Shown here piece by piece: positions 17,601 through 33,571 of a stretch of 34,299 nt of DNA. Under the pieces are notes generated by a model, which saw only the letters and a list, made by a program, of their open reading frames with translations, was not told the origin of the DNA and made no database searches. The DNA lies in contig JAFXHJ010000001.1 in NCBI GenBank assembly GCA_017536445.1, positions 1-34,299 on the forward strand. The letters are read 5' to 3'. A program made the translations under genes and the position numbers. Source of the stretch: Clostridia bacterium (GTDB lineage: Bacteria; Bacillota; Clostridia; TANB77; CAG-465). Positions within the stretch are counted from its first letter, which is position 1, and each line of letters starts with the position of its first letter.

Positions 17601-17629
17601 ATTATACCATTTTACTATGTTTATGTCAA
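17601..17629 (-). promoter_or_regulatory. Perfect consensus sigma-A promoter for the small paralogous pair
   Basis: On minus: TTGACA (17629-17624), 17-base spacer, TATAAT (17606-17601). The -35 box contains the TGA stop codon of yabG. Confidence 0.85.
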
Positions 17630-18501
17630 CTTAGTTGAAGGCTAGGCATACCTTCACGGTATTGACCTCTTGTTTGTACACCACCGATTCCTTTTAATCC
17701 TTCTCTTGTATTAGAGATTATGCTAGCAAGAGGAGCAAATTTATCTACTGGAGTATATGCAACCGTTTGTGCCACTATAATAGGGTCTAGCATATCAATT
17801 AAGACTCTTTTTGGCGCGCTAGCAAAGTTAGCTCCTGCACTTAAAATAGCCTCGTAGTATGACTGACAGGCGCCTGCAAATATAACTAAATTATCTAATG
17901 AGTGTTCATATCTTCTTGCTTCTAAAACACTTTCTATGTAATATCTAGAATTTTTGTAATTATCTATATTATATATGTCGTTCCTTTTTCTAATAAACGC
18001 ATCATGCCCAGTAAGGACAAGTATGTTTGGTCGTATCTTTGTTAAAAGATTATATACATATTTAGGTTGGTCTTGTTCTTTAATGTTATATACATGAGCA
18101 GTTATTCCCATCTTTTTATATACATCTTTACATTTGTTTGCATATTCTGCATCTCCATCTATGTGAAGAACAACACCTGGCTTTTTAAACACGGCTTCTT
18201 TAGTGTATGTTGGAATTGTTTGATCATAAGAAGTATAGTTACTTCTTAAGTTAAATCTATTTTTTACACCAGTGTAAGTTCTAGAGAGTCTAGAGCTAGT
18301 ATTCTTTTCTATAATCTTCATTCTATTCTTTATTTCATCTGGTGGGACAAGTTTAAGGTCATATATTGGAGCGTCTGCAATTATTCTAACAGTTATTCCT
18401 ATTAAATCTACCATTTCACCATATACTTTGGTTACTCTAAAAAGCACATCATAACCATAAGATTTTCTTGCCACAATATCTCCTGTATTAAATGTTTGCA
18501 T
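17626..18501 (-). CDS. yabG: Sporulation-specific cysteine protease YabG
   Basis: 291 residues from ATG 18501, which follows GGTGA at a usable distance; an in-frame GTG at 18510 overlaps that site. YabG trims spore coat proteins late in sporulation, and in C. difficile it processes germination proteins. Hallmarks are GDIVARKSYGYDVLFRV at the N-terminus, VVLHIDGDAEY, NILVLTGHDAF with NIDNYKNSRYYIESVLEARR, FAGACQSYYEAILSAGANFA (candidate catalytic Cys and nearby His from GHD), and the C-terminal GIGGVQTRG. It implies a spore-forming host. A sequence like a sigma-K -10 box lies just upstream. Confidence 0.95.
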   Translation of the reverse strand: MQTFNTGDIVARKSYGYDVLFRVTKVYGEMVDLIGITVRIIADAPIYDLKLVPPDEIKNRMKIIEKNTSSRLSRTYTGVKNRFNLRSNYTSYDQTIPTYTKEAVFKKPGVVLHIDGDAEYANKCKDVYKKMGITAHVYNIKEQDQPKYVYNLLTKIRPNILVLTGHDAFIRKRNDIYNIDNYKNSRYYIESVLEARRYEHSLDNLVIFAGACQSYYEAILSAGANFASAPKRVLIDMLDPIIVAQTVAYTPVDKFAPLASIISNTREGLKGIGGVQTRGQYREGMPSLQLS

Positions 18502-18516
18502 ATTATTCACCTATGG

Positions 18517-18525
18517 TAGTATATG
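18517..18525 (-). promoter_or_regulatory. Candidate sigma-K -10 element for yabG
   Basis: On minus the sequence is CATATACTA, matching the sigma-K -10 pattern CATANNNTA. An AC about 16 bases upstream, in the right arm of the preceding terminator, could be the -35 contact. yabG is sigma-K controlled in B. subtilis. Confidence 0.45.
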
Positions 18526-18528
18526 CAA

Positions 18529-18564
18529 AAAAAGAAAAAGGTGTTAGCATTTGCTAACACCTTT
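18529..18564 (-). terminator. Terminator of the 121-residue gene
   Basis: A 12-bp stem (18564-18553 with 18548-18537 on minus), loop AAAT, followed by TTCTTTTTTT. Its sequence is closely related to the terminator at 29145-29174. Confidence 0.9.
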
Positions 18565-18571
18565 AATGGAA

Positions 18572-18937
18572 TTACTCCTCGGGGGTATTGTTTTCCTCGG
18601 TGGAGTCGGTTTCAGATTCGGGAGTTTCCTCGGGAGCCTCGGGCTCAGGCTTGGGAGCGTTAAGCTCATCTACCAGCGCTTTACACTCGGCGACTACGAT
18701 AAGCTGGGCGTCGATTTCAGCACGGATAACTGTGCTGGTTCTACCTGCTGTAAGAGGTCTTCTCTTGTGAGCAGTCTTGCCAAGCTCGAGGTAGAGAGCG
18801 GTGAGTTTCATCTGAGCATCTTCCAAAGCTTTGTCTGCTTTGAACTTTTTCTGCTTATCCGAAATAAAGTCCGCGGTCTTGTTGAAGATTTCGGAATTTC
18901 CGATCGCTTTTGAGATAGTTTCTTTAAATCCTGACAT
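18572..18937 (-). CDS. Small helical protein with acidic tail, paralogue of the 29179-29445 gene
   Basis: 121 residues, unknown function. The N-terminal SGFKETISKAIG and the core KLTALYLELGKTAHKRRPLTAGRT match, position by position, the 88-residue protein encoded at 29179-29445 (KLSALFNELGKVTYYGAPIVTGRD). The first 90 residues should form coiled-coil helices. The last 30 are a Pro/Glu/Ser/Thr-rich acidic tail that the paralogue lacks. The LYxELGK region recalls small Clostridia proteins that carry a zinc ribbon after such helices, but no cysteine pairs are present here. AAGGAGG precedes the start. It follows the giant kinase gene and has its own promoter. GC is higher than in chromosomal neighbours. 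Confidence 0.72.
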   Translation of the reverse strand: MSGFKETISKAIGNSEIFNKTADFISDKQKKFKADKALEDAQMKLTALYLELGKTAHKRRPLTAGRTSTVIRAEIDAQLIVVAECKALVDELNAPKPEPEAPEETPESETDSTEENNTPEE

Positions 18938-18988
18938 GGATTTAATCCTCCTTAAATTTAATTTAGACTTAATTTTGTAGTGGATATA

Positions 18989-19017
18989 ATTATATCACTA
19001 GAGTGGGTGGTTATCAA
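18989..19017 (-). promoter_or_regulatory. Promoter for the 121-residue gene
   Basis: On minus: TTGATA (19017-19012), 17-base spacer, TATAAT (18994-18989) with an upstream TG. The -35 box contains the TGA stop of the kinase gene. Confidence 0.75.
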
Positions 19018-22000
19018 GATTTCTCGTAAATATACGCAGAGTCAGTATTGGTAACTATAAACTTGTTTCCAAATCTGTAGATACTAGAATCCTTTCTAGC
19101 ATACTCACATTCAATACTCTTAAACGAACCAGAGTTTACGTTGTAGAAATAGATGTTGCCATTTCCAACATAGTACAGGGTGCTTCCATAGAAGGAAAGC
19201 GATGGACTCAAGGAACGATTAAGTGTAAATTCGGTAACCTGATCGGAATCTTTTTCTATAATGATACCTCTTGTAATGTTTTCCTCTTTGAAGACTACAA
19301 GACGTTTTCTTGAGATATCATCATAGCAGATACCAAGTCTTAAGTTACCAGTAAACTTACCTTTAGAAATAGAGTATACCTTTCTAGAATTACAATACAC
19401 ATCATATGTGTTTTTGTTTGTGTTCTCTTCTATGAAGACAAATTTATCTCCTTCGTCTACACTAAGATTAAGTATAGGGAAGCTTGTGGGCTTCTTAATC
19501 GTGTGAGTTTTTATCTCTCCAGTTTCAGGATTAAATTCGTCTACAAAAAGTTCACACTTGTCCACCGAAGTGTAATAGAGAGCATTAGGATTAATTTCAA
19601 TAGCACCATTTGGATAGCGCTTATTAATTCTGTATTCTTTCTCAGACTTGATGTCGAAGAAGTAAGACATACTTCCTACTACAACCAAAATACCAAACTC
19701 ATTCACACTTAATGTATCGTAGTTTCGGATATTTACCAAGACTCTTTCTTTGTATAACAAGTTGAGCTCGTTATCCAAATACACATCTGGTGAAATAATG
19801 GATTTTACCGGCCGTTCATACTGTTTAGGTATAAACATGTTATCGCATTTCTTAAGGTGTTCAAGGTACGCTTCAAGAATGCTAAGCATACTTTCGCGTC
19901 TCTTTCCTTCAAAAGTTTCAAGGAAATACTTAATAAGCGTTCCGGGCAGAAAATCCCAACCAATGCTAATGCTTGGCGGTACAATATGATGTTCACCAAG
20001 AACCGATAAACCTTGCTTCATACGTTCTGTTTCATTTGCAGGAACCTTATCCATATTTGAAATACCCCTAAAAGGATGGGAGTAAGTAAGGTAATAGAAA
20101 GACTGAACTGCAAGAGAATACCAGTCATCGCTAGAGGTAATGTTACCACTTTCAGCAGATGGCGGATAAATGTACATATTGGTGTACATACAGTTTTTTA
20201 CGTTATCGAAGCTCATTCCGTCGATATCTATAATAAACACATCTGTACCACGAATTAGGATGTTTCCACCGTTAAGGTCGCCTATGAATCCACCAATAGA
20301 ATGGAGAAATTCAATTCCTTTACAAACCTTAATTAGAATCTCTACCACTTGTTTTCTTGTATAGCCGTGTTCCTTAACAAACTCCTTATCTTTAAGATTA
20401 GAAATTTTATACGAGTCTTTTACAAACTCTTGAACAAAGCCTTTAAGAGTAACATTACCACCGTCCTTTAAGTAAAGGAGGGTAGAAGCAGAGATAATGT
20501 GAATGTCTGAGTGCGTGTTGTTAAACTCATCAATGAGTGGGTTCTTTTCAAGAGCTTTAGCAAGTATTTTAGATTTAAATGCTAAGTCTACATGACTCTT
20601 AAAAATCTTTTGGACAGTTCCTTCTTCGTAAGGATAGATATCTGCTTCACCACCATCGAAGTCTGAATCACGCGAACTAAGCTTAGTAAAGTGCGCCTTG
20701 TCCAAAAAGAGAACTTGCTTAGGCTTAATGCCATCCTGGCTACAAATAGGGCAGAGCGCTCTAGATGTAGCGAAGGGTTGCATATGTGTAAAACAGAAAT
20801 TCTTGTATGTTTCAAGAGCGCTCTTGATAAGCGACTCATCAAAGTTACAAGCCTTTATATCCTCCACAATAGCCACAAATTTCTTAAGTCCAAGAGAATG
20901 CACCTTAGATAAGTATTCGTCAGCAAAGATATACTCCAAAAGGTAGTTCTTAAATATATCAAGAGTTTTTTCAGCCTTAGCCTTCTTAAATGCTTTATCT
21001 GTTCCAAGTATAACACTAGACTCTAGCATAGCAAGGTTAGGTATTAAAATTTCACCCTTGAAATCTTTATGCATCATCATCGTTTCGAAGATTTGCTTTG
21101 ATGTGCAGATAAATGACTCGTCTTGAATCTTAGGTAGAACCTTTTTGTACATAACTAGAATTGCTTTTAGCCTTTGTATATGCTTGAAGCTATCTAGCGG
21201 TATAATGCTTTGCACATTAATGCTTGTAAGCATTAGTTTGTTAGGAATCATACCACTAGGAAGTTGCACCAGTCTTTCGGGTTTTATACCCGCAAAACTA
21301 TCATAAAGATTATTTTCTAGAGCAAGTCTAACTTCATCTACAAAACTGTTAGGATGTACATTCTTGTTTGCAGAATACAAAATGTGACTACCTGCAATAT
21401 AATATTTGGCGGTTTTATCCTCAAACGCGACATTCTTTTCGTAGTCATCTGTGTCTACTAACATAAATGTCTTTTTGCAGATAGGGCAGAACTCGTCCTT
21501 AAGGTGCCAATGTTTGTGGAATTTGCATTTCTGCATTCCAAGAACAGCACCAAGGAATTGGCTAGCTTGATTAGAATAACTTGTTCTGTTTCTTTGAGTA
21601 ACAAGGTCATTGTACTCGAAAACATCATAGTTTACTCTAAATTCAGCAGCGCCTTCTAAGAGTCCTAAAAAGTACAAATAGTATTCTCGAGGATTGTATC
21701 CATTTGCTTTGTACGTGTTGTAGTAAAGTCTATCCTCGTAGAGAACAGGCATCTTAGAGTCTAAGGAAATAAGAAGATGATTGCTTGTAGGAGAAATAGA
21801 AAGTACACTTCTGTCATACTGAACATACATTTCCAGTACACTGTGAATGAAAACATATACCTCTTGAGTATGCAGGGTGTTAGACTTTATTACCTCATAA
21901 GCATTCTTAAGTCTTCCATAATTCCAAATAACCCCAATAACCTTGTAATTGCCTGCTATTGTTACATTTTTTGAAACAATAACTTTAGTAGGAGCAAGGA

Positions 22001-23714
22001 AGCCTTTACCACGAAGGTTAGGGTTTGCAAAGATATTCTTAAGAGAATTCTTTGAAATCTCTCGACTATCTATGTAGCCAAGACAATCTTCCAAGGCCAT
22101 ACAGCCTTCAGCAGCTTCTTTAGACTTTACCGTTTTAAGAGCTGCTTTTAGAGCACCTTCAGGAGTGTAATCCTTAAAGAGTGCAACCCTAGAAAGAAGA
22201 GCGGAGTCTTTTGATGAAAGGTTTTCTACAAACTCTACCTGGTTTACTTCAAGACCGTTAAACGTATCATCCTGGGGGGTAATAGTAACAATACCATCTT
22301 CCAAGAAATTAATTAATGCCTTCATAAACGTAGGGTGCAAGATTTTTACAAACTCACACTTATAAATATCCTTAACATCAATTTGGTTGTTAGTAAGGTA
22401 TTCACGTATTACCAAGAACATTACATACTTGTAGTTAAACAGTTCACTTGCTTCAGTTGCGTTAAAAGAAATAGCAAGCGGATCTCCGAATGTAGGGTAG
22501 TATTCTATCCTATCCATCAAAATAGTGTTTAGGAAGTCTGTGTTCTTGTAGAACCAGAACCTCTTTATTTTACCTTTGTATCTGCCCCAGTCATCCAAGG
22601 TTTTAATAAGAGTGATGAGATTATTCTCCGAGGTATAACAATAAGAAACAGCACCTTTAAGTGTTCTACTTGTGCTCTTACCAAAGTAAATATATCTGCC
22701 GATGTTCGTAGATACGAGTACAGAGTAGCTAGAAAGATTAGCTATTTCGTCAAGTTCTTTAAGCTTACCCAAAATCATATCAAAATCTTTGTCGTTTTTT
22801 ACTTTTGCAAAAGTAATATCGTCATTGTCCTCGAAAATTATGAAATCATCATTTTCTCTAACTTGTTTAACAGAAGCCAAAAATCTTTGTTCGTCGATAA
22901 CGAACGCGGTGTGATGTCGGTCATAATTCTTGAAGTTAAGCACATCTTCGCCGTAGTTAAATAGGTCATGCAAATCCGTAATATAATTATTGTTCAAGGT
23001 ATACCGTATGATGTTAATCTCAAGCTCAAAAGGGATATTGCTAGAATATCTTCTGCCGCTTTCAATGAACACACCCATTCTAAGCCATTCATAAAATGTA
23101 GAGTTAGAATTTGTAATGGAATACTTGAATTCTTTGTAAGAAGTATAATAGTTCATCTTAACAAAGATTATACTAAGGATAATGTCTATATCGCTTGGAG
23201 CGAGAGTCACAGGCTCAAACACCATTGCCATGAACAGTGCATTAATCCAGTGATCGTTTTCAGACAAAAGATACAAGGTGGGGTAGTGTATGTATACATT
23301 TTCCCCAGATGCTCCAAGAAAATCTTTGAAGTTATCTGCAAGAGATACAAGACTTTCAAAGATGTATCTTGGAGTTTGATCAATTATACGACCGTCATAT
23401 ACGGCAAAGACAGCTTTTTCTGCTTTGTCCACTGTAATAAACTTAAGGTTTTGGTATTCTGAAGAAATAGTTGCTCCAGATTTAATAGCCTTATATATGA
23501 TTCTTGAAAGTCTTTCATCCGTTATATGGAGTACAATTCTTTCAAGACCATCATAAGTGTATACAGTTACAAGAGAATTAGAACGACCTTTACACCACTG
23601 CTTATCCATTTTGTGAAGAAGTTTTTTATACTTGCTTTCACGAATACCGATGCTGCTTTCAGATTTGTATGTAGCGCTCTTAAAAACAGCGGTTGGTTTA
23701 AGTAGTGTAAACAT
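19014..23714 (-). CDS. Giant multidomain protein with divergent kinase domain and two zinc fingers
   Basis: 1566 residues from ATG 23714, 6 bases after GGAGG. Residues 1-720 are unassigned, mixed alpha/beta. Two similar CxxH...CPIC zinc-binding motifs follow: Cys730/His733/Cys743/Cys746 and Cys974/His977/Cys988/Cys991. A protein-kinase-like domain spans roughly 1020-1290: GGEADIY as a glycine-loop remnant, Lys1036 in VQKIFK, catalytic loop GDLNGGNIL (Asp1146, Asn1151) instead of HRD, and DID-Gly (Asp1163/Asp1165) instead of DFG. This resembles YegI/TerY-P type kinases. Residues 1300-1566 are short beta strands with a propeller-like rhythm. It is the last gene of a PP2C-VWA operon, so it probably phosphorylates partners in that pathway. 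Substrate is unknown. No membrane helix is obvious. Confidence 0.75.
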   Translation of the reverse strand: MFTLLKPTAVFKSATYKSESSIGIRESKYKKLLHKMDKQWCKGRSNSLVTVYTYDGLERIVLHITDERLSRIIYKAIKSGATISSEYQNLKFITVDKAEKAVFAVYDGRIIDQTPRYIFESLVSLADNFKDFLGASGENVYIHYPTLYLLSENDHWINALFMAMVFEPVTLAPSDIDIILSIIFVKMNYYTSYKEFKYSITNSNSTFYEWLRMGVFIESGRRYSSNIPFELEINIIRYTLNNNYITDLHDLFNYGEDVLNFKNYDRHHTAFVIDEQRFLASVKQVRENDDFIIFEDNDDITFAKVKNDKDFDMILGKLKELDEIANLSSYSVLVSTNIGRYIYFGKSTSRTLKGAVSYCYTSENNLITLIKTLDDWGRYKGKIKRFWFYKNTDFLNTILMDRIEYYPTFGDPLAISFNATEASELFNYKYVMFLVIREYLTNNQIDVKDIYKCEFVKILHPTFMKALINFLEDGIVTITPQDDTFNGLEVNQVEFVENLSSKDSALLSRVALFKDYTPEGALKAALKTVKSKEAAEGCMALEDCLGYIDSREISKNSLKNIFANPNLRGKGFLAPTKVIVSKNVTIAGNYKVIGVIWNYGRLKNAYEVIKSNTLHTQEVYVFIHSVLEMYVQYDRSVLSISPTSNHLLISLDSKMPVLYEDRLYYNTYKANGYNPREYYLYFLGLLEGAAEFRVNYDVFEYNDLVTQRNRTSYSNQASQFLGAVLGMQKCKFHKHWHLKDEFCPICKKTFMLVDTDDYEKNVAFEDKTAKYYIAGSHILYSANKNVHPNSFVDEVRLALENNLYDSFAGIKPERLVQLPSGMIPNKLMLTSINVQSIIPLDSFKHIQRLKAILVMYKKVLPKIQDESFICTSKQIFETMMMHKDFKGEILIPNLAMLESSVILGTDKAFKKAKAEKTLDIFKNYLLEYIFADEYLSKVHSLGLKKFVAIVEDIKACNFDESLIKSALETYKNFCFTHMQPFATSRALCPICSQDGIKPKQVLFLDKAHFTKLSSRDSDFDGGEADIYPYEEGTVQKIFKSHVDLAFKSKILAKALEKNPLIDEFNNTHSDIHIISASTLLYLKDGGNVTLKGFVQEFVKDSYKISNLKDKEFVKEHGYTRKQVVEILIKVCKGIEFLHSIGGFIGDLNGGNILIRGTDVFIIDIDGMSFDNVKNCMYTNMYIYPPSAESGNITSSDDWYSLAVQSFYYLTYSHPFRGISNMDKVPANETERMKQGLSVLGEHHIVPPSISIGWDFLPGTLIKYFLETFEGKRRESMLSILEAYLEHLKKCDNMFIPKQYERPVKSIISPDVYLDNELNLLYKERVLVNIRNYDTLSVNEFGILVVVGSMSYFFDIKSEKEYRINKRYPNGAIEINPNALYYTSVDKCELFVDEFNPETGEIKTHTIKKPTSFPILNLSVDEGDKFVFIEENTNKNTYDVYCNSRKVYSISKGKFTGNLRLGICYDDISRKRLVVFKEENITRGIIIEKDSDQVTEFTLNRSLSPSLSFYGSTLYYVGNGNIYFYNVNSGSFKSIECEYARKDSSIYRFGNKFIVTNTDSAYIYEKS

Positions 23715-23749
23715 ATTTTCCTCCAATAAATAGAATATTGGTTAGGAAC

Positions 23750-24463
23750 TTATACGTTGAAGAAGTCGTCATCAACGATAGCCTGATCGGCTGCGGTATC
23801 TGCCGCATTGTCCTTGCTTGCCTTAGAGAAGAACTCAGACTTCAAGGAGTAAGAACTTCTAGACTGCTCCTTGCAGCTCTTAGAAAGTTCGCTGCCAAGA
23901 CACGCTACAAGTTCCTTTACGGTAGTGATGTTTTTAGTGCATGTGAATCCAAGCTTTTCTCCAGCGCCGGTAGCAATTGCATCACCGAATGCAACAAATA
24001 CCGTAGTAGCATCAAGCGAATTGAGCTCGGTAATTGCAGCCTTGGCGTTGTTCATATATCTGCCGTAATCTTCGTTGTCTTCGCCGTCGGTAAAGACGAG
24101 GAAGGTAATGCGTGCACGCACATTGAGTCTCTTTATGAGTTCGTTGTAGTATGCAATTGTAGATTCTACAGTTCTTACGATAGAAGAGTAGAGGTGAGTT
24201 GCACCATCGGCATGATAGCTTGTATTAAAATGTTTAACCTCTTTAAAAGCGCTCATCCAGTAGTTGCCGTTGAATGTTGCTTTGGAAATTGCGATGGAAC
24301 CCTTTTCTTCAAACTTAGAAAAGTCATCGTAGAATGCATTATTTGCTTTCTGCATTGCATATACATGCTGTTCCATTGAGCCGGATTCATCATAAAGCAA
24401 TGCGATGATGTTGATGTTGTCTGAAGAAAAGTCGTATTTGCTATCAGATACAATGTAATTCAT
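23750..24463 (-). CDS. VWA-domain protein with intact MIDAS (TerY-like)
   Basis: 237 residues from ATG 24463, 8 bases after TTGGAGGAT; it begins one base after the stop of the upstream gene. The von Willebrand A fold carries a full metal-ion site: DESGSM (Asp25, Ser27, Ser29), Thr89 in DGATHL and Asp126 in FTDGEDN. The C-terminal 45 residues are Ser/Lys/Ala-rich, ending DDDFFNV. TerY proteins of tellurium/chemical-stress systems have this domain and are encoded with a PP2C phosphatase and a kinase, as here. It is probably cytoplasmic, since no signal peptide is seen. A role as a metal-dependent adaptor or phosphorylated scaffold is inferred. Confidence 0.85.
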   Translation of the reverse strand: MNYIVSDSKYDFSSDNINIIALLYDESGSMEQHVYAMQKANNAFYDDFSKFEEKGSIAISKATFNGNYWMSAFKEVKHFNTSYHADGATHLYSSIVRTVESTIAYYNELIKRLNVRARITFLVFTDGEDNEDYGRYMNNAKAAITELNSLDATTVFVAFGDAIATGAGEKLGFTCTKNITTVKELVACLGSELSKSCKEQSRSSYSLKSEFFSKASKDNAADTAADQAIVDDDFFNV

Positions 24464-24464
24464 A

Positions 24465-25952
24465 TTAAATATCCTCCAATAATTTATATTCTCCAAAATT
24501 TGTTTCAAGATTTTTGAAACCGTTAAAGTATGAGTGGTTCAGATAAACTCTGTTACCTGATACATGGAAATCTAAATACAGATTTCTAAGTTCGTATGTT
24601 ACGGTTAGAAGATTGTTATCCTCACATTCCATAAAGAGAATGTATTTCTTTTTCTTGCTACCGTGATACGAAAGAAGTTTCTGCTTTTCAGACCTAATGA
24701 AGAAGTCTGAGTATTCTGTGTACTTGCTGCTTAATGTTACAAACTTGCTATGAACAAAGTTGAATATCGTGTTTACAGACACCTTGAGCACATCGTCATA
24801 AAGCTCAAAGATTTTTGTAAGAAAGAAGAACTCTCTCCAAGAAATATCTTCCTTAAATCCTCTTAAAACATCGGTTAGTATTTTAGCACGATTTGTTTCA
24901 AGCATCGAAAGAAGAGATACGGCGGTGTTCTTCACGCTTACATTATTCTCAGGATTGCAACATGAGATAAAAGAGGGGAGTGGAAATACAAATTCCACAC
25001 CGCTATTATCTGCGATGTTGTCTACCGTGTTTTCAAATTGAATAAGCTCTGTAAAGAAAGCTGAATCAGAGAAAGTGGTAGTGTAGTTCCTAAGTCTAGC
25101 TTGGAGCTTTTGACAACAAGAAATGATATGACCATCCTTGATGTTAGCTGTAACATAGTTTTGGTAATGCTCCAAATCTTCAATGAAGTATTTGAAAACC
25201 AAATCATCATACTCGGATTCTATAAACAAGTTATAGAACTTAGAGTTAGATTTTTTGTACTCATCAAAAGTGTCTGTTAGCCTACATCTTAAAGAAGATT
25301 TGAAGAAAATGTATTCTGCGTATATAACATAGTTTAGAAATTCTTCCTTCTTTCTGGTATCGGCTAAAAAGAAACGTTCACCTTTTGCTTTGTTAAGCAA
25401 ATTGCTAAGCGAAGTAACAGCATTGTTAAGTTGAGATGCCACTACGTGATTTTCACGGTTGGTATCTAAAAGTGCATTGTAGAACTGATTCAGTTTCATC
25501 ATCAGCTTCGAGAACTTATCTTTGTAAAGGTTGTAATTAACAACTAACTCTACAAAATCTTTAATCTCTATTTCTAAGTTAGAAACTGCAATAAGTCTAC
25601 CAGACTCACACTCCGGATCAATAGCGAAAGTGAGCTCGCCGCTTAATCCATCGGAGTATTTTGAAAGTTCTGTTTCGTATTCCTTGCGTTCTGCGGCTAT
25701 CCTTTCAAGATAGTGTAGATATTCACTTGGGAATTGAAGAGAGAAAACTTTTATGTATTGCTCAAGATAGTTCAATTTTTCATAAACTATATTGCGCATT
25801 TTGAATTTTTCTACTTCTTCTAATTCCTTTGAAAGTTCCTCTACAGAGGGAGTATCATCTACAACTGTCTCTTTTTGAGGTTCCTCAGAATTTTTAGGCT
25901 TTATGCGAAACACTTTCTTAAAGAATTCTTTAAGTTTTTCAAAGAATCGCAT
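24465..25952 (-). CDS. Unknown 495-residue protein of the VWA-PP2C-kinase operon
   Basis: No family recognised. The N-terminus is basic and amphipathic (MRFFEKLKEFFKKVFRIKPK), which could touch the membrane. An acidic segment (VEELSKELEEVEKFK) follows, then long mainly helical stretches with many Tyr, Phe and Asn. The last ~80 residues look beta-rich (KKKKYILFMECEDNNLLTVT). No catalytic motif, signal peptide or membrane helix stands out. It lies between the two VWA genes, spaced 10 and 1 bases from its neighbours, with AAGGAG before its start, so it is surely co-expressed. It is a candidate core component specific to this version of the system. Confidence 0.8.
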   Translation of the reverse strand: MRFFEKLKEFFKKVFRIKPKNSEEPQKETVVDDTPSVEELSKELEEVEKFKMRNIVYEKLNYLEQYIKVFSLQFPSEYLHYLERIAAERKEYETELSKYSDGLSGELTFAIDPECESGRLIAVSNLEIEIKDFVELVVNYNLYKDKFSKLMMKLNQFYNALLDTNRENHVVASQLNNAVTSLSNLLNKAKGERFFLADTRKKEEFLNYVIYAEYIFFKSSLRCRLTDTFDEYKKSNSKFYNLFIESEYDDLVFKYFIEDLEHYQNYVTANIKDGHIISCCQKLQARLRNYTTTFSDSAFFTELIQFENTVDNIADNSGVEFVFPLPSFISCCNPENNVSVKNTAVSLLSMLETNRAKILTDVLRGFKEDISWREFFFLTKIFELYDDVLKVSVNTIFNFVHSKFVTLSSKYTEYSDFFIRSEKQKLLSYHGSKKKKYILFMECEDNNLLTVTYELRNLYLDFHVSGNRVYLNHSYFNGFKNLETNFGEYKLLEDI

Positions 25953-25962
25953 GTGTTTCTCC

Positions 25963-26910
25963 TTATTTATAGAAATTAGATTCGATGTGACCTATAACAG
26001 GGAAACCTAAGGCGGCAGCCTTAATTGTATGAATGTCTTTAAGACAGAAATACTTTACAGCTTTAACCTTCTTTGTTTTTGTTATGGTCTTCAAAAGAAT
26101 GCGAGGATTGTGCTTGCATTCATCAGTTCTTGCCGTTCCGATAAAAATAATACGAACTTCTTCGAGCATATATTGCTTAGAATCTACATCAAACGTTTTG
26201 TAAAGAGTAACATAGTCCTTTACAAAGTTGTTAATGTGAGTGAGCGTAGAATAGATATCGAATTTGGTTTCAGCTTTTTCATCAAGAGTAAGCAGGGGAG
26301 ATACAATATCTTTACCTTTAAGAGTATCTCCTTTAATAAGCTCAGAATGTTTTGTAGCATTGCCAAAGCGGATAAACATAAAGAACTCATCAGCATTGTC
26401 TGTAACAATTTTATTGATAAGTCTTGTAATTTCCGTCTTGTAACCTACAGTTTCTTCAGATGCTTCAACTACGATGATGATACCGCTTCTTTTTTCATAT
26501 AACGGTTTTGGTGTATACACTTTGTACCAAGGCTCGGGTTTCTCGCCGGGTCTTAGTGGTTCAGCAGGACCTTTGTATGCATCGGGTTTGTCACCAATTT
26601 TAGAAGGTGTAACCGGTGCTTGGTAAGGTGCGGAAGGACCAATGTGGTTTTCCGGAAATGCTGGACCATCATAAAAATCTGTTTCTTCAGCGCCATATCC
26701 ATAAGCCTGTGGAGGCGGATATGAAACTTGTTTGACAGGTGCTTTCTGCACTGGCTTTTGTGCTGGCTTTTGAGCGGGTGCAGGAGTAACTGGTGTCACT
26801 TTGGTTACACCAGAAGGTTTCTTTGGTTGCACGCCAAATACTTGTTCTATGGGATCAACCACAGGACTTTGTATTTCGTCAGGCTTTTTCTTCTTGTTAA
26901 ATAATCCCAT
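25963..26910 (-). CDS. VWA-like protein with proline-rich arm and degenerate MIDAS
   Basis: 315 residues from ATG 26910, 6 bases after GGAG; an ATG directly before it is too close. Residues 1-8 are basic (MGLFNKKK). Residues 10-140 are a disordered Pro/Lys/Gln arm with PAQKPAQKPVQKAP, SYPPPQAYGYG and LRPGEKPEPW. Residues 142-315 look like a VWA fold: IIIVVEASEETVG where DxSxS would stand, ETKFDIYSTL at the Thr position and RIIFIGTARTDE near the third motif. The metal-binding residues are not conserved, so it probably serves as a structural partner of the intact VWA protein. It is the second gene of the operon and starts 10 bases after the phosphatase stop. Confidence 0.7.
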   Translation of the reverse strand: MGLFNKKKKPDEIQSPVVDPIEQVFGVQPKKPSGVTKVTPVTPAPAQKPAQKPVQKAPVKQVSYPPPQAYGYGAEETDFYDGPAFPENHIGPSAPYQAPVTPSKIGDKPDAYKGPAEPLRPGEKPEPWYKVYTPKPLYEKRSGIIIVVEASEETVGYKTEITRLINKIVTDNADEFFMFIRFGNATKHSELIKGDTLKGKDIVSPLLTLDEKAETKFDIYSTLTHINNFVKDYVTLYKTFDVDSKQYMLEEVRIIFIGTARTDECKHNPRILLKTITKTKKVKAVKYFCLKDIHTIKAAALGFPVIGHIESNFYK

Positions 26911-26920
26911 CATGTTCTCC

Positions 26921-27577
26921 TTATATAAGAATAGTAATGTCATCAAAGAACTGGCTTTGATTAGAGCGGATGATGCCTTCAGGAGAATACTTAGTATCCG
27001 TTCCCAAAACTAAAGCATCGAAATCCACATCGAGTTTTTTGTCTGCGATTGGTGCAATACCATCCGAAGCAATACCTACAAGCTTAAAGTCTTTCTTTGG
27101 ATATTCGAAAGTCTTAAACTTAAGGGGCTCCTCATAGGTTGTTGTTGGAATCTTAGTGTATGCAAAGTACGGGGGAGTTTTGCCATAGAAGAGGCGAGTG
27201 TAACTCACAACATCTTCGTGGTTAACGGTTATTATATAACCATCTCCGATGAACTTTACGATAAACTTATCTTCAGTTTCAAAACAAGCTATGATGGTAA
27301 AGAGTAAATTGTTTGCGATGAAATCGTTTGCATCTTCTGGGTTTGTAATAGAAAGAATAGATTCAAACGCCTTACGAACGTTTTCTTCAAATTCATTTAC
27401 ATCAAACCGGTTGGGAAGCTTAGCGAAAGCCTGCACAAAAAGTCTTGTTCCTACCTCAGAAAATTCGGCGGAACTGCAACCATCTGTAACAAGTTTCAGG
27501 TTGTTTTCCATGTAACAGAAATCTTGATTGTTTAGGCCATTTAAATAATGACCATTTCCTTGTCTACATATTCGCAT
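26921..27577 (-). CDS. PP2C-type serine/threonine phosphatase
   Basis: 218 residues, at the short end of the PP2C family. Metal-site motifs are visible: NNQDF (Asp19), VTDGCSS (Asp32, Gly33), FIGDGYI near residue 110, ASDG near 168 and the final FDDITIL. It should remove phosphate from Ser/Thr of proteins phosphorylated by the operon's kinase. It is the first gene of the operon, served by TAGGAGGTG and a strong promoter 55 bases upstream. The phosphatase, VWA and kinase set matches the TerY-P triad. The N-terminal RxxNxD motif is slightly altered. Confidence 0.88.
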   Translation of the reverse strand: MRICRQGNGHYLNGLNNQDFCYMENNLKLVTDGCSSAEFSEVGTRLFVQAFAKLPNRFDVNEFEENVRKAFESILSITNPEDANDFIANNLLFTIIACFETEDKFIVKFIGDGYIITVNHEDVVSYTRLFYGKTPPYFAYTKIPTTTYEEPLKFKTFEYPKKDFKLVGIASDGIAPIADKKLDVDFDALVLGTDTKYSPEGIIRSNQSQFFDDITILI

Positions 27578-27631
27578 ATAGACACCTCCTAAAATTTAAT
27601 TAAATTTGCTATTAATATAAATTGCGGAAAA

Positions 27632-27660
27632 ATTATATCATAAAACGCTCAAAAATTCAA
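27632..27660 (-). promoter_or_regulatory. Promoter of the PP2C-VWA-kinase operon
   Basis: On minus: TTGAAT (27660-27655), 17-base spacer, TATAAT (27637-27632) with an extended -10 TGA. It drives 27577 down to 19014 in five genes without an obvious internal terminator. Confidence 0.8.
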
Positions 27661-27755
27661 TATTATGTAACCTTAATTTGAAATAAAATAGAAGAAATAA
27701 ATGTAAGCAAGAATTAGTATCTAAAATATATTAAAATAAAAAGAAAAAAAGTCGC

Positions 27756-27793
27756 AAAAATGAAAGAAGCACAGTATTTTAATACTGTGCTTC
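27756..27793 (-). terminator. Terminator of the telA gene
   Basis: An 11-bp stem GAAGCACAGTA (27793-27783 with 27776-27766) with a 6-base loop, followed on minus by TTTCATTTTT. It separates telA from the operon downstream. Confidence 0.85.
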
Positions 27794-27808
27794 AAAGGGA
27801 ATCTCGCC

Positions 27809-29026
27809 TTAGAACTTAAGGCCGGGTGAGCTTGTTGATGTAGAATCAGGAAGCGCATCCTTAACTTCACCTTCAGACTTGAGTCTGGTAACAAAAGGAG
27901 CAATCTCTGTTAAGAGGGTCTCAAGTTTACCAAGCTCGGTCTCGATGTTTGCAGCTCTTTCTTCACGTGCTTTCTTGATAAGATCGCAACCTTCGATAAC
28001 TGTCTTAGCAGCCTCCAAAGCAGCTTCAACACTGTATACACCGTTTAAGAGAATCTTTTCAGATTCTTCAGCGGTAAGAACTGTGTTTTCGCTAACCTTT
28101 TTCATAAGCTCATTGTTAAGAGCCGAGAGAGACTTCTGGCCTTCGAGAGCAATCTTGGTCTTTGCATTAAGAACAGCGTTTCTAAGCTGCTGGGATGCAA
28201 GCGCCATGCTGTGGCTCTTCTGGGTGCGAACGGCAATCTGTGTGTTCTTGTTGGCCTTTGCCTGAAGGAAAAGTTGACCGATGCTGATAACGAATGCAGC
28301 GCGGGATTTTTCAAGGTTGAGAAGAACAACCTGCAAGGTTTCGTAACCATCTTTCAGGTTATCATACTTTTCTTTGTCTGCAATGAGACCGGAAAGTTCG
28401 TAGTCCAAACGTGCCTGTTCAACTTCGGCGGCGATTCGCTGCTCTGCAATACGGCCGGCAACAATGTACTTCTCCAGTTCTTCGCAACTGAGTTTGTCTT
28501 GCATAGCAGATGTGTGGATTTTGGTCCAACCATCTTTTAAAAGCTCGACCCAGTTATCGCAGGAATGCATAAGCTGTTCCAACAGTTTATAGTTGGTAAT
28601 TGCTTTGTATTTTACATCTGCATCGTACTTGTCTTTGGCGCCTTTAGAAAGCTTCAAGAAGATTTTTTGGATAAAATTAGGTTCTTGAAGAACCAAGTTG
28701 AAATCTTCGTAGCTGTCGTTGGCTTGTTTGGAAAGCGCAACAACTTCGCGGATTACTTGCTGGTCTGCCTGAGAACCGGCTTCGTCCTGAAGAATTCTTC
28801 CTGCCTGTTCGAAAGAACGAAGAAGGGGAATAGAACCATAGGACATAACGTTCTCAATTTCTGTAACATTGATTTGTTCGGAAAGAGCTATAATATCCCG
28901 CTGAACGTCAGCAGGGAAGCTCGAAAGCGAACTGGTACTAAGCGGTGCAAGCTCCTTTGTAGGAACTGCGGGTTTGTTCTCGTCGCTAGACAGAACCTCG
29001 GGAACGATTGCTGTGTTTTCTGTCAT
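27809..29026 (-). CDS. telA: TelA-family toxic anion resistance protein
   Basis: 405 residues, preceded by TAGGAGGA. The ENVMSYGS motif (about 58-65), a stretch of long helices with KYDADVKYKAITNYKLLEQL, and QLFLQAKANKNTQIAVRTQK agree with TelA/KlaA (toxic anion resistance, PF05816). It is soluble and coiled-coil rich. TelA proteins are linked to tellurite and cell-envelope stress resistance; the mechanism is unclear. It has its own consensus promoter and terminator, but lies directly upstream of the PP2C-VWA-kinase operon, so a common pathway is likely. Codons are more GC-rich than those of mutS or valS. The Pro/Ser/Thr-rich ends are probably flexible. Confidence 0.9.
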   Translation of the reverse strand: MTENTAIVPEVLSSDENKPAVPTKELAPLSTSSLSSFPADVQRDIIALSEQINVTEIENVMSYGSIPLLRSFEQAGRILQDEAGSQADQQVIREVVALSKQANDSYEDFNLVLQEPNFIQKIFLKLSKGAKDKYDADVKYKAITNYKLLEQLMHSCDNWVELLKDGWTKIHTSAMQDKLSCEELEKYIVAGRIAEQRIAAEVEQARLDYELSGLIADKEKYDNLKDGYETLQVVLLNLEKSRAAFVISIGQLFLQAKANKNTQIAVRTQKSHSMALASQQLRNAVLNAKTKIALEGQKSLSALNNELMKKVSENTVLTAEESEKILLNGVYSVEAALEAAKTVIEGCDLIKKAREERAANIETELGKLETLLTEIAPFVTRLKSEGEVKDALPDSTSTSSPGLKF

Positions 29027-29079
29027 TTCTTTAATCCTCCTAATTATTTAATTATGGTATACAGAATAAACGCACACAT

Positions 29080-29108
29080 ATTATATCACCTCTAAAGATT
29101 ATTGTCAA
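29080..29108 (-). promoter_or_regulatory. Perfect consensus promoter for telA
   Basis: On minus: TTGACA (29108-29103), 17-base spacer, TATAAT (29085-29080) with an extended -10 TGA. Confidence 0.85.
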
Positions 29109-29140
29109 CTAATTATGGTAATTAGTAGAATGGTTAGATA

Positions 29141-29174
29141 GAAAAAAAGGTGCTAGCATTTACTAGCACCTTTT
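29141..29174 (-). terminator. Terminator of the 88-residue gene
   Basis: Stem 29174-29163 with 29156-29145, 6-base loop, then a T-run on minus. It resembles the hairpin at 18537-18564, with a compensated base pair. Confidence 0.88.
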
Positions 29175-29178
29175 ATAG

Positions 29179-29445
29179 TTAGGCTCCGCTTTTTTCAGAA
29201 AGCTGTAGGTTAAGGCTTTCAATGTTATTCTTACATACAGTGATTTCGTCTTTGATCACTTGAGCATCTCTGCCGGTAACGATAGGGGCACCGTAATAGG
29301 TTACTTTACCCAATTCGTTAAACAGGGCGCTGAGTTTTGCGTTCTCATTGTCCAATGATTCTTTTAGACGATACCGTCTTTGCTGTTCGTTTACGAAGCT
29401 GTTTGCTTTGCCAATACCTTTCGAGATAGAATCTCTAAGTCCCAT
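29179..29445 (-). CDS. 88-residue coiled-coil protein, paralogue of the 18572-18937 gene
   Basis: Unknown function. GLRDSISKGIG, then SLDNENAKLSALFNELGKV and PIVTGRDAQVIKDEI align with the 121-residue protein at the far end of the TelA-kinase region. The shorter form lacks the acidic tail. Helical coiled coil is expected throughout and there are no cysteine pairs. AGTCCTCC on plus gives a ribosome binding site about 8 bases before ATG. It is a single-gene unit with a perfect promoter and its own terminator, so it is highly expressed. It lies directly upstream of telA. I infer a small partner of the stress system. Confidence 0.72.
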   Translation of the reverse strand: MGLRDSISKGIGKANSFVNEQQRRYRLKESLDNENAKLSALFNELGKVTYYGAPIVTGRDAQVIKDEITVCKNNIESLNLQLSEKSGA

Positions 29446-29497
29446 TTTTTAGTCCTCCAAATTAATTAATTTTTTGTAGTGAAGCATCACTGTTTTT

Positions 29498-29526
29498 ATT
29501 ATACCATAAAGCAAATATTATGTCAA
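29498..29526 (-). promoter_or_regulatory. Perfect consensus promoter for the 88-residue gene
   Basis: On minus: TTGACA (29526-29521), 17-base spacer, TATAAT (29503-29498). Confidence 0.85.
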
Positions 29527-29531
29527 TTTTG

Positions 29532-29558
29532 CATAAAAAAGCCCCGGCTAAACCGAGG
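29532..29558 (-). terminator. Terminator of rpsT
   Basis: CCTCGG (29558-29553) pairs with CCGGGG (29547-29542), followed by CTTTTTTAT on minus. Confidence 0.85.
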
Positions 29559-29564
29559 TTATAA

Positions 29565-29816
29565 TTATTTTGCTAAAAGTTTTGCAAAGTGAGCTTTTTT
29601 TCTATCTGCTGTATTTCTTTTTAATACACCTTTAGACCAAGCTTTATCTACTTCAGAAACAGCTTTTTTGTAAAGTTCTTCTGCATTTTCGCCGTTTGCT
29701 ACTGCAGTTTCGAATGCTTTAACAGCTTCTCTGTAAGCTTTTTTAACTTTTATATTTTCAAGTCTATTAGCATCGTTTACTAATACTCTTTTCTTAGCTG
29801 ATTTAATATTTGGCAT
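29565..29816 (-). CDS. rpsT: 30S ribosomal protein S20
   Basis: 83 residues, a normal S20 length. It begins PNIKSAKKRVLVNDANRLEN and continues with SEVDKAWSKGVLKRNTADRK, both family hallmarks. S20 binds 16S rRNA early in small-subunit assembly. GGGAGGG precedes the ATG on minus. It is a single gene with promoter and terminator. Codons are AT-rich like the housekeeping block, unlike telA just downstream. Confidence 0.98.
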   Translation of the reverse strand: MPNIKSAKKRVLVNDANRLENIKVKKAYREAVKAFETAVANGENAEELYKKAVSEVDKAWSKGVLKRNTADRKKAHFAKLLAK

Positions 29817-29860
29817 GTTTTTCCCTCCCTTTTATATGAGCATAATATTTTACAGTAACC

Positions 29861-29889
29861 ATTTTAACATAATAATTTAGTAAAATCAA
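29861..29889 (-). promoter_or_regulatory. Promoter for rpsT
   Basis: On minus: TTGATT (29889-29884), 17-base spacer, TAAAAT (29866-29861). It is back to back with the plus promoter at 29897, with seven bases between the -35 boxes. Confidence 0.65.
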
Positions 29890-29896
29890 GTAGGAA

Positions 29897-29924
29897 TTGA
29901 AAAAAATAAAATTTGTGGTATAAT
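29897..29924 (+). promoter_or_regulatory. Promoter for the 62-residue Cys-rich protein
   Basis: TTGAAA (29897-29902), 16-base spacer, TATAAT (29919-29924). Confidence 0.75.
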
Positions 29925-29969
29925 ATGTCCAGCTTTAATAAAAAATCCAAAAATAATTAGGAGGATATC

Positions 29970-30158
29970 ATGAAATTTGAATTAAGCAAAGAAGAAGAAA
30001 AAAAGGTCAGGGAGTGGGAAGAAAACCACAAATGCACTGAACGGAACAAATCCTGTTGCGGTGGCGAGATTACATATTCTTTTACTCCGACGAGTATTGG
30101 AACCGCGGTTGATGCTACATGCATCTGCGGTCAAACTTTAGCCGTAAGAGAGTTGTAA
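29970..30158 (+). CDS. 62-residue cysteine-rich, probably zinc-binding protein
   Basis: Unknown family. A charged helix (residues 4-20, LSKEEEKKVREWEENHK) is followed by Cys22, Cys29-Cys30, and a C-terminal CICG (Cys51, Cys53). Between them lies a beta-like stretch, GGEITYSFTPTSIGTAVDAT. The cysteine spacing suggests one metal site. TTAGGAGG precedes ATG 29970. It is its own unit with promoter, between rpsT and the dTMP cassette. It is short, but the promoter, ribosome binding site and composition support it as real. Confidence 0.7.
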   Translation: MKFELSKEEEKKVREWEENHKCTERNKSCCGGEITYSFTPTSIGTAVDATCICGQTLAVREL

Positions 30159-30163
30159 TTTTA

Positions 30164-30192
30164 TTTACACCAAATATCCTATGTGATATAAT
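30164..30192 (+). promoter_or_regulatory. Promoter for the tmk-thyA-folA cassette
   Basis: TTTACA (30164-30169), 17-base spacer, TATAAT (30187-30192) with upstream TG. Confidence 0.7.
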
Positions 30193-30253
30193 TCCTTTAG
30201 CAAAAAAGGTAAGCAAAAATTATTAAAAATATTAAAGAAATGTGAGGTTTAAA

Positions 30254-30946
30254 ATGTCATTAAAAGGTAAAATTATTGTTATTGAAGGAACTGATGGCAG
30301 CGGTAAACAAACACAGGCTAAAAGGTTAAGAGAAAAATTAACCGAAGCAGGGTATACCGTTTATGCAAGTTCTTTCCCGAATTACGAAAGTGATTCATCA
30401 GCAGCTGTAAGAATGTATCTTAAGGGTGAGATAAAGGAAAAGGCAGAAGATGTAAGTGCTAAAGCAGCCTCTATCTTTTACGCTGTAGATAGATACATTA
30501 CCTACAAGAAGGAAATGGAAGCAGTACATTCTAGTGGAGAACAAGTAATTATCCTTGACAGATATGTTGCTTCTAACATTATTCACCAAGGTGCTAAACT
30601 TATTAAGAGCGAAGGCGAACATGGACTTCATGAGTTCATTAACTGGCTTTCGAATCTTGAACATGGAGATTTTGGAATCCCCAAAGCAGATGTTACTATA
30701 TATCTGAATGTTCCTGTAGATTACACGATTAAGCTTAGAGAAAATCGTGCAAATAAAATCACGGGCGGAGAAAAACAAGATATCCATGAAGCAAGCGAAT
30801 CTCACTTAAGAGATGCTTCTACGTCTGGTCTTACTGCAGCCAAACTTTTGGGCTGGAATGTTATAGAGTGCGTTAAGGATGATACGATGCGTACGATCGA
30901 AGACATTGCAGATGAAATTTGGTCTGTGGTAGAAAATATTAAATAA
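30254..30946 (+). CDS. tmk: Thymidylate kinase
   Basis: 230 residues from ATG 30254; GTGAGG at 30242 is the ribosome binding site, though GTG there is also in frame. It phosphorylates dTMP to dTDP. P-loop EGTDGSGKQTQ (11-21), with Gln19 where Ser/Thr is usual after the Lys. SFPNYESDSSAAVRMYL and the DRYVASN motif follow, then a LID region with RENRANKITGGEKQDIHE. The LID-type Lys/Arg placement suggests the variant class of Clostridia rather than the E. coli type. It is followed by thyA and folA, making a complete dTMP-to-dTDP cassette, which is unusual because tmk is mostly found near holB. Confidence 0.9.
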   Translation: MSLKGKIIVIEGTDGSGKQTQAKRLREKLTEAGYTVYASSFPNYESDSSAAVRMYLKGEIKEKAEDVSAKAASIFYAVDRYITYKKEMEAVHSSGEQVIILDRYVASNIIHQGAKLIKSEGEHGLHEFINWLSNLEHGDFGIPKADVTIYLNVPVDYTIKLRENRANKITGGEKQDIHEASESHLRDASTSGLTAAKLLGWNVIECVKDDTMRTIEDIADEIWSVVENIK

Positions 30947-33347: not shown

Positions 33348-33571
33348 GTTGATTTGCGTAGAAGTGGTAGATGGCTATGCTTAGACATAGGGAACTTCCA
33401 TGGAGCATGTCTGATTTTAAATCGGGCGGCAAGTATAAAATTGTATTTGCCAAGTATATATTTTTGAAAAAAGGTATGTTTATTTGGCATTATATTATAC
33501 GACAATTTTGAAACACACGGGGTAGTGTAAAACTTGCGAGTCCTTGAAATTATAGTAAAGGAGTGAAATTT
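33348..33571 (+). promoter_or_regulatory. Long structured leader upstream of rpsJ
   Basis: About 224 nt of untranslated leader without an open frame. It holds nested helices: GAAGT...ACTTC around CTATG...CATAG (33360-33407 region), a GATTT...AAATC hairpin, an imperfect GGCAA...TTGCC stem near 33430-33452, and ACAC...GTGT around GGGGTA near 33515-33528. S10 operons in other bacteria are controlled by L4 binding to the leader. I do not recognise a named motif, so autogenous control is an inference from length and position. Confidence 0.55.

Follow-up and report, generated by a model that had tools for sequence, protein, structure and literature searches.

Organization of the locus

The window, the whole 34,299-nucleotide stretch of Clostridia DNA that was analyzed, carries on its minus strand five genes running from position 27577 to 19014, which encode in the order of transcription a PP2C-type phosphatase, a VWA-like protein, a 495-residue protein, a VWA protein and a giant kinase (Table 1). 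Junctions between successive genes are about 8, 10, 1 and 23–35 nt, the probable ATG start of the VWA-like gene being 26913 or 26910. The initial annotation had described five ORFs of the same sizes as a single operon, and all of them were recovered on this strand with short junctions. It had also claimed a strong promoter; a promoter-like site, identified as a consensus match only, is indeed present and recurs at the equivalent position before the PP2C gene in 27 of 31 related loci (see below). Adjacent to this site is a copy of the box TTACATAA, possibly an operator. The box occurs at ≤130 nt upstream of the PP2C gene in 23/31 loci compared with 15/225 other ORFs (6.7%), counts that are not independent since the 31 loci are related, and its three copies in the window are not above chance. 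The operon encodes nothing that is obviously an effector, such as a nuclease or a transporter.

Upstream of the operon lies telA, whose product exceeds the Pfam TelA cut-off. With a promoter and a terminator of its own, the telA gene of the window is, as read from the DNA, a separate transcription unit. The region is flanked by mutS, mutL, valS and yabG on one side and by rpsT, tmk, thyA, dfrA and an S10 leader on the other (neighboring gene names were read from sequence, save yabG, telA and the S10 leader), and the surroundings of the operon are core chromosome. The leader is an S10-Clostridia ribosomal protein leader (Rfam RF03136) at 33351–33432. Two small, similar helical proteins of 121 and 88 aa are encoded on either side of the telA–kinase region (18572–18937 and 29179–29445); the gene for the 88-aa protein is provided with a perfect promoter and a terminator of its own, and its product was otherwise seen only in the sister species. 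Both were rejected as operon members because they have no clear counterpart beside the operon in other genera. In two loci, a different small zinc-ribbon protein follows the kinase.

Table 1. Features of the operon and of the adjacent telA gene in the window
Feature	Position	Strand	Details
PP2C-type Ser/Thr phosphatase	26921..27577	-	218 aa; Pfam PP2C_2, 52 bits
VWA-like protein, MIDAS absent, Pro-rich variable N-terminus	25963..26946	-	327 aa as TTG ORF
495-residue mainly helical protein, new family	24465..25952	-	31-member family
VWA protein, intact MIDAS, TerY/YegL-like	23750..24463	-	ATG start
Giant kinase	19014..23726	-	1570 aa from TTG, 1566 from ATG at 23714; Pfam Pkinase
Kinase residues ~255–470: weak kinase-like repeat without zinc motif, tentative	22317..22964	-	hhalign score 27
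Kinase residues ~480–755: weak kinase-like repeat and zinc ribbon 1	21462..22289	-	C734, H737, C747, C750
Kinase residues ~755–1000: degenerate kinase unit and zinc ribbon 2	20727..21464	-	C978, H981, C992, C995
Kinase residues ~1010–1290: active-type kinase domain	19857..20699	-	GGE, K1040, GDLNGxN, DxDG
Kinase residues ~1300–1570: C-terminal all-beta region	19017..19829	-	All-strand AlphaFold2 model
Operon promoter-like site	27632..27660	-	TTGAAT-17-TATAAT, TG-extended; 10/12
TTACATAA box, candidate operator at operon promoter	27663..27670	-	Upstream of PP2C in related loci
TelA-family protein, divergent	27809..29026	-	405 aa; Pfam TelA 51.1 bits (cut-off 30), E 1.4e-13
telA promoter-like site	29080..29108	-	TTGACA-17-TATAAT with TG; 12/12 consensus
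Terminator-like stem-loop after telA	27766..27793	-	12-pair stem, T-rich tail

Conservation and distribution of the module

A protein search of 56 relatives showed that the gene neighborhood recurs at 22–57% identity outside the genus. Scanning GTDB genomes with a PP2C profile yielded 31 loci, all from Clostridia metagenome genomes, some of them named for animal guts. The PP2C, 495-residue and VWA proteins are encoded in 31/31 loci and the VWA-like protein in nearly all, and a kinase of 1408–1707 aa is found in every locus whose contig continues. The five-gene set proposed by the initial annotation thus co-occurs elsewhere, and its order is kept in all loci but L046, where the PP2C gene has moved between those for the 495-residue protein and the VWA with the set intact. 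Since set and order are kept although the proteins are mostly only 17–57% identical to those of the window, the arrangement is beyond chance.

As the 31 loci were ascertained by PP2C, a count of co-occurrence independent of PP2C was taken from a survey of 238 genomes of the window's order with a profile of the 495-residue protein. This profile matched 21 genomes (about 1 in 11), and in 21/21 a PP2C gene lies within ~3 kb on the same contig. The initial annotation had asked whether the 495-residue protein occurs only with the other genes, and this result supports that it does. A chance neighborhood is excluded by this result together with the 31/31 loci. The PP2C profile matched 27 of 238 genomes of the order. 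With a sample of the class, 2/391 genomes matched, both from the window's order, and with a sample of the phylum 1/398, the window itself. Most of these genomes are metagenome assemblies, and contig ends truncate several loci. We conclude that the module is real, patchy and, as far as sampled, restricted to one order.

The module does not occupy a fixed place. In G002 (L105), the yabG–rpsT slot, which corresponds to positions 17626–30946 of the window, is filled by ABC-transporter-like genes and holds no operon. In each of six other loci, the upstream neighbor is a large gene from a single family, identified as secA in the one member tested, and in several loci the downstream genes likewise belong to a single family, whose tested member is prfB. 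The operon is therefore an accessory module found at different chromosomal sites. Phage or plasmid cargo was rejected, as no plasmid match was found and the one 'bacteriophage' contig bears compact-type genes only (see below).

The initial annotation had placed telA beside the operon as a neighbor. The adjacency stands, but telA is more than a neighbor: a divergent telA with its own promoter adjoins the operon upstream in 25/31 loci, and 24 of these 25 have a promoter-like site before it. The gene is not beside the operon in 5/31 loci, and one further locus is cut by a contig end. Full-length TelA matches in the operons score 51–69 bits compared with 385–401 bits for the ordinary TelA that three operon-bearing genomes (G024, G030, G049) hold separately, and we conclude that the TelA of the operon is a divergent paralog.

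Several variations were noted among the loci. In L052 and L128 there are two intact-type VWA genes, the 495-type protein is shorter, at 347 aa, and the kinase has 1707 aa. The PP2C ORFs of L029, L030 and L035 exceed the usual ~230 aa with lengths of 344–412 aa; in L030, the added portion follows the phosphatase domain. A 619–653-aa protein with a weak DnaB_C match takes the place of telA upstream of the PP2C gene in L031 (7722–9599), with equivalents in L033 and L051. Matches to yabG are in pieces in G006, G008 and G012, and none was found in G010 and G013; such broken or missing matches suggest a loss of sporulation in some relatives.

The phosphatase, the two VWA proteins and the 495-residue protein

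In the PP2C alignment, D19, D32, G33, D112, D172, D212 and D213 are invariant (22/22), and the catalytic residues are, by this measure, intact. An hhalign comparison with E. coli PphC did not reach significance, although both proteins match Pfam PP2C_2. The MIDAS of the VWA protein is equally well preserved, with D25, S27, S29 and D126 in 29/29 sequences and T89 in 28/29, and the protein matches E. coli YegL with an hhalign probability of 90.5%.

When profiles are compared, the VWA-like protein and the intact VWA match co-linearly but at a low level (34%). At the position of the DxSxS motif it has 'ENT', and since the Glu (E161) is invariant (25/25), the loss of the MIDAS is itself conserved. 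A degenerate second VWA, as had been supposed, is therefore present with its MIDAS lost in 25/25 sequences. Its Pro-rich N-terminus varies among loci.

The 495-residue protein had been reported as unrecognized and it remained so, no known family or fold being matched. It gave no Pfam or NCBIfam match over the cut-off, the Pfam matches to FAD_SOX and MLD falling below it. An AlphaFold2 model (pLDDT 79, pTM 0.54) consists of helices and a small C-terminal alpha-beta part and had no Foldseek match at E ≤ 0.001. Translin, the best match on a second look (Z 8.1), was rejected as the fold because helical bundles can be expected to score as high.

Domain structure of the giant kinase

The kinase matches Pfam Pkinase at 31.7 bits (E 1.3e-7), exactly at the cut-off, so that the kinase assignment made earlier is supported by a profile. 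K1040, D1150, N1155 and D1169 are invariant in 25/25 kinases, and the GGE, GDLNGxN and DxDG motifs are nearly invariant in the alignment; its description as a divergent 'GDLN' kinase fits well, D1150 being present in 25/25 and the L and N nearly so. The modeled domain superimposes on BRAF (6u2h_D) over 255 residues with Z 19.8 and an rmsd of 3.8 Å, and hhalign matches it to E. coli YegI over 245 columns (probability 96%, E 3e-9; hhalign E-values here and below are those of single comparisons). Taken together, the alignments indicate that the kinase domain is intact and belongs with those of YegI and TerY-P.

The enlargement of the kinase, also claimed at the outset, is a conserved property (~1,410–1,710 residues). 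Inspection by eye had raised the suspicion of kinase-like repeats, and three segments upstream of the active domain, when compared with it, gave hhalign scores of 27, 31 and 36, while 29 controls scored ≤19. Residues 755–1010 match the kinase–zinc profile of the compact kinases described below with a probability of 97.1% (216 columns, E 5e-11), and zinc ribbon 1 matches the compact profile at 93.5% (E 2.3e-7); reversed-profile controls gave 0.3%. Both zinc motifs are of the form CxxH...CPxC and are N-terminal to the active domain, the ribbon 1 residues being present in at least 24/25 sequences and those of ribbon 2 in 25/25. Given the 97.1% match and the ribbon match, the giant kinase contains one or more degenerate copies of the kinase–zinc-ribbon unit and a second zinc ribbon, and, as far as profile comparison can tell, it grew at least in part by tandem copying of this unit. 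The kinase-like stretches at residues 255–470 (14.5% with the compact kinase domain) and 480–735 (30% for the kinase-like part) are tentative. When only the C-lobe halves were compared, no repeat score was significant, and structural proof of the repeats from the AlphaFold2 model failed because of low confidence over most of the region, most of residues 371–840 being under pLDDT 50 and residues 1–370 outside the model. The weak repeat scores of residues 255–735 and the low model confidence there could also be read as an unrelated multi-domain fusion with no tandem kinase–zinc units, an explanation that we find improbable in the face of the co-linear match of residues 755–1010 and that of the first zinc ribbon.

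The top Foldseek matches of the whole kinase model are LRRK2 kinase-WD40 structures (E 9e-13), and the C-terminal all-beta region, which is common to giant and compact kinases, is modeled as a probable beta-propeller.

A compact sister operon

Extra PP2C hits were traced to a second type of operon within the order, consisting of a gene for a protein of ~300–337 aa, a VWA gene, a PP2C gene and a gene for a ~590-aa kinase (L114–L119, L121–L123 and L125). The kinase comprises a kinase domain, a zinc ribbon and a region matching the beta region of the giant, in that order. The product of the first gene matches Pfam Isochorismatase with E 0.005, below the cut-off, and with its motifs as seen by eye reads as an isochorismatase/nicotinamidase-like hydrolase. 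The compact operon thus resembles the giant one in its homologous VWA, PP2C and kinase, but it has a far smaller kinase and a nicotinamidase-like gene and lacks the 495-residue protein, the MIDAS-less VWA and TelA. At least six genomes carry both. Trees of the PP2C (support 100/99), the VWA (97/94) and the kinase domain (99/97) each split giant from compact by one branch, which argues that the parts travelled together.

L057 (MT837596.1) is a 6.6-kb contig labelled 'Bacteriophage sp.' that holds a VWA gene, a PP2C gene and the 5' part of a kinase gene of compact type; it is probably bacterial DNA or cargo. In L118, L119 and L125, compact operons lie beside serine-recombinase-like genes.

Relation to TerY-P triads and other known systems

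A TerY-P triad is defined by a TerY-like VWA, a PP2C and a kinase with a C-terminal zinc ribbon (PMC11090510). The giant operon has three of the four structural features tested: a TerY-like VWA with a MIDAS (28–29/29; YegL 90.5%), a PP2C-family phosphatase and a Ser/Thr kinase. The fourth, a zinc ribbon fused at the kinase C-terminus, was not found; the two ribbons precede the active domain and the beta region follows it. The TerY-P-like core recognized by the initial annotation, namely a VWA with an intact MIDAS, an intact PP2C and a YegI-like kinase domain in one operon, is therefore present, and since the ribbons precede the active domain we file the operon as a variant and not as a standard member. 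By the definition of PMC11090510 it is a TerY-P triad variant that is new and, as far as sampled, limited to one order. Like the triad it joins a VWA, a PP2C and a zinc-ribbon-bearing Ser/Thr kinase in a single operon, but it adds the degenerate kinase unit(s), the propeller, the MIDAS-less VWA, the 495-residue protein and TelA, and it lacks adjacent restriction or DNA-processing genes. The compact operon, in contrast, fits TerY-P descriptions well.

TerY-P triads accompany restriction systems, and forms with a kinase C-terminal OB-fold defend against phages, T7-like ones (PMC11090510, PMC7699616). The C-terminus of the giant kinase is modeled as all-beta with propeller matches. In E. coli, YegI autophosphorylates and is dephosphorylated by PphC, as PMC13232886 states on the basis of earlier work. 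The YegI–PphC–YegL set resembles the operon in its homologous kinase domain and VWA and its same-family phosphatase, but YegI has 648 aa and another C-terminus, and TelA, the 495-residue protein and a second VWA are absent there. The GTPase-centered systems of PMC7159879 combine, as the compact relatives do, a kinase, a zinc ribbon and a beta-rich region with PP2C and VWA; they are described as restricted to actinobacteria and include GAP1-N2 GTPases, and the giant form goes beyond them by its additional units. In some CoCoNuT operons, too, there is a second VWA whose MIDAS is broken (PMC11090510). Type III-A CoCoNuT likewise has one VWA with a full MIDAS and one without, but only the middle Thr is missing there, whereas the whole MIDAS is missing here, and no CnuH, McrBC or HEPN components were seen among those window genes that could be identified.

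Searches of the host genome and of nine operon-bearing relatives found neither TerC nor TerD, which extends to the whole host genome what the initial annotation had reported for the window; another relative, G012, has a TerD on a different contig. A Ter tellurite-resistance operon was rejected on this ground, and reading the locus as a tellurium system is unsupported.

Two further sets were noted. L142 (7533–12682), from another Clostridia family, has a TerY-P-like set of a kinase, two VWAs and a PP2C beside type I restriction-modification-like genes. In L143 (5211–13778), the neighbors of a VWA, a PP2C and an 872-aa kinase are a protein of 1113 aa and two small ones whose size is WXG100-like.

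Discussion

By homology, the operon probably works like a TerY-P switch. On balance, our analysis favors an enlarged phosphorylation switch of the TerY-P type, in which a kinase would sense a partner or ligand, the PP2C would reset the system and the output would be protective. What we observe is that the enzymes are present, intact and co-conserved; the signaling steps are all ones that we infer and might run as follows. The zinc-ribbon/pseudokinase array and the propeller would hold and sense a ligand or partner. On a signal, the giant kinase would phosphorylate itself and its operon partners, the likeliest targets being the VWA proteins, the 495-residue protein and TelA. Phosphorylation would alter how a complex assembles in which the MIDAS VWA acts as the bridge and the MIDAS-less VWA has a structural role, and the PP2C would reset the switch. 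TelA and the 495-residue protein are candidate output parts, and the output would most likely protect against envelope, toxic-agent or phage stress.

The initial annotation had suggested that this may be a distinct stress or defense-like system, and the output might belong to a stress response or to phage defense. A plausible if tentative reading is an envelope or toxic-anion stress pathway with TelA as the effector under phosphorylation control. The divergent TelA paralog upstream in 25/31 loci behind a conserved strong promoter, the ordinary TelA held separately by three of those genomes and the lack of mobile genes around the window copy are consistent with such a pathway. However, TelA is missing beside the operon in several loci, the molecular role of TelA itself is unproven and the genome is without TerC and TerD.

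We are more doubtful of an anti-phage system, in which the kinase would detect infection and an abortive or blocking output would be delivered via the 495-residue protein and/or TelA. Related modules in which the kinase C-terminus differs do give protection from T7-like phages, and triads are found with restriction systems (PMC11090510, PMC7699616), as is the L142 set with its type I restriction-modification-like neighbors. The patchiness of the module (21/238 genomes, varied chromosomal sites) and the serine-recombinase-like genes beside some compact relatives (L118, L119, L125) would also suit defense. Yet the giant operons examined sit among core genes with no recognizable defense islands, the PADLOC TerY-P models match no operon protein, the kinase matches other defense kinases only over the kinase domain, and there is no recognizable effector.

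Returning to the enlarged TerY-P-type switch, a bolder version of it, which at present we would rather doubt than expect, is that the tandem pseudokinase–zinc-ribbon array, the active kinase and the propeller (an arrangement partly like the kinase-WD40 part of LRRK2), with the 495-residue protein and TelA, make up an undescribed phosphorylation-gated defense or stress machine of one gut Clostridia order.

TerY-P modules occur in both stress and anti-phage systems. The operon brings to light a new protein family, that of the 495-residue protein, which is bound to a single operon type. It also points to an uncommon way in which a bacterial kinase can become very large, namely, at least in part, the copying of a kinase–zinc-ribbon unit. 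Since compact and expanded forms exist within one order, swaps or deletions could ask what the added parts, namely the zinc ribbons, the MIDAS-less VWA, the 495-residue protein and TelA, contribute.
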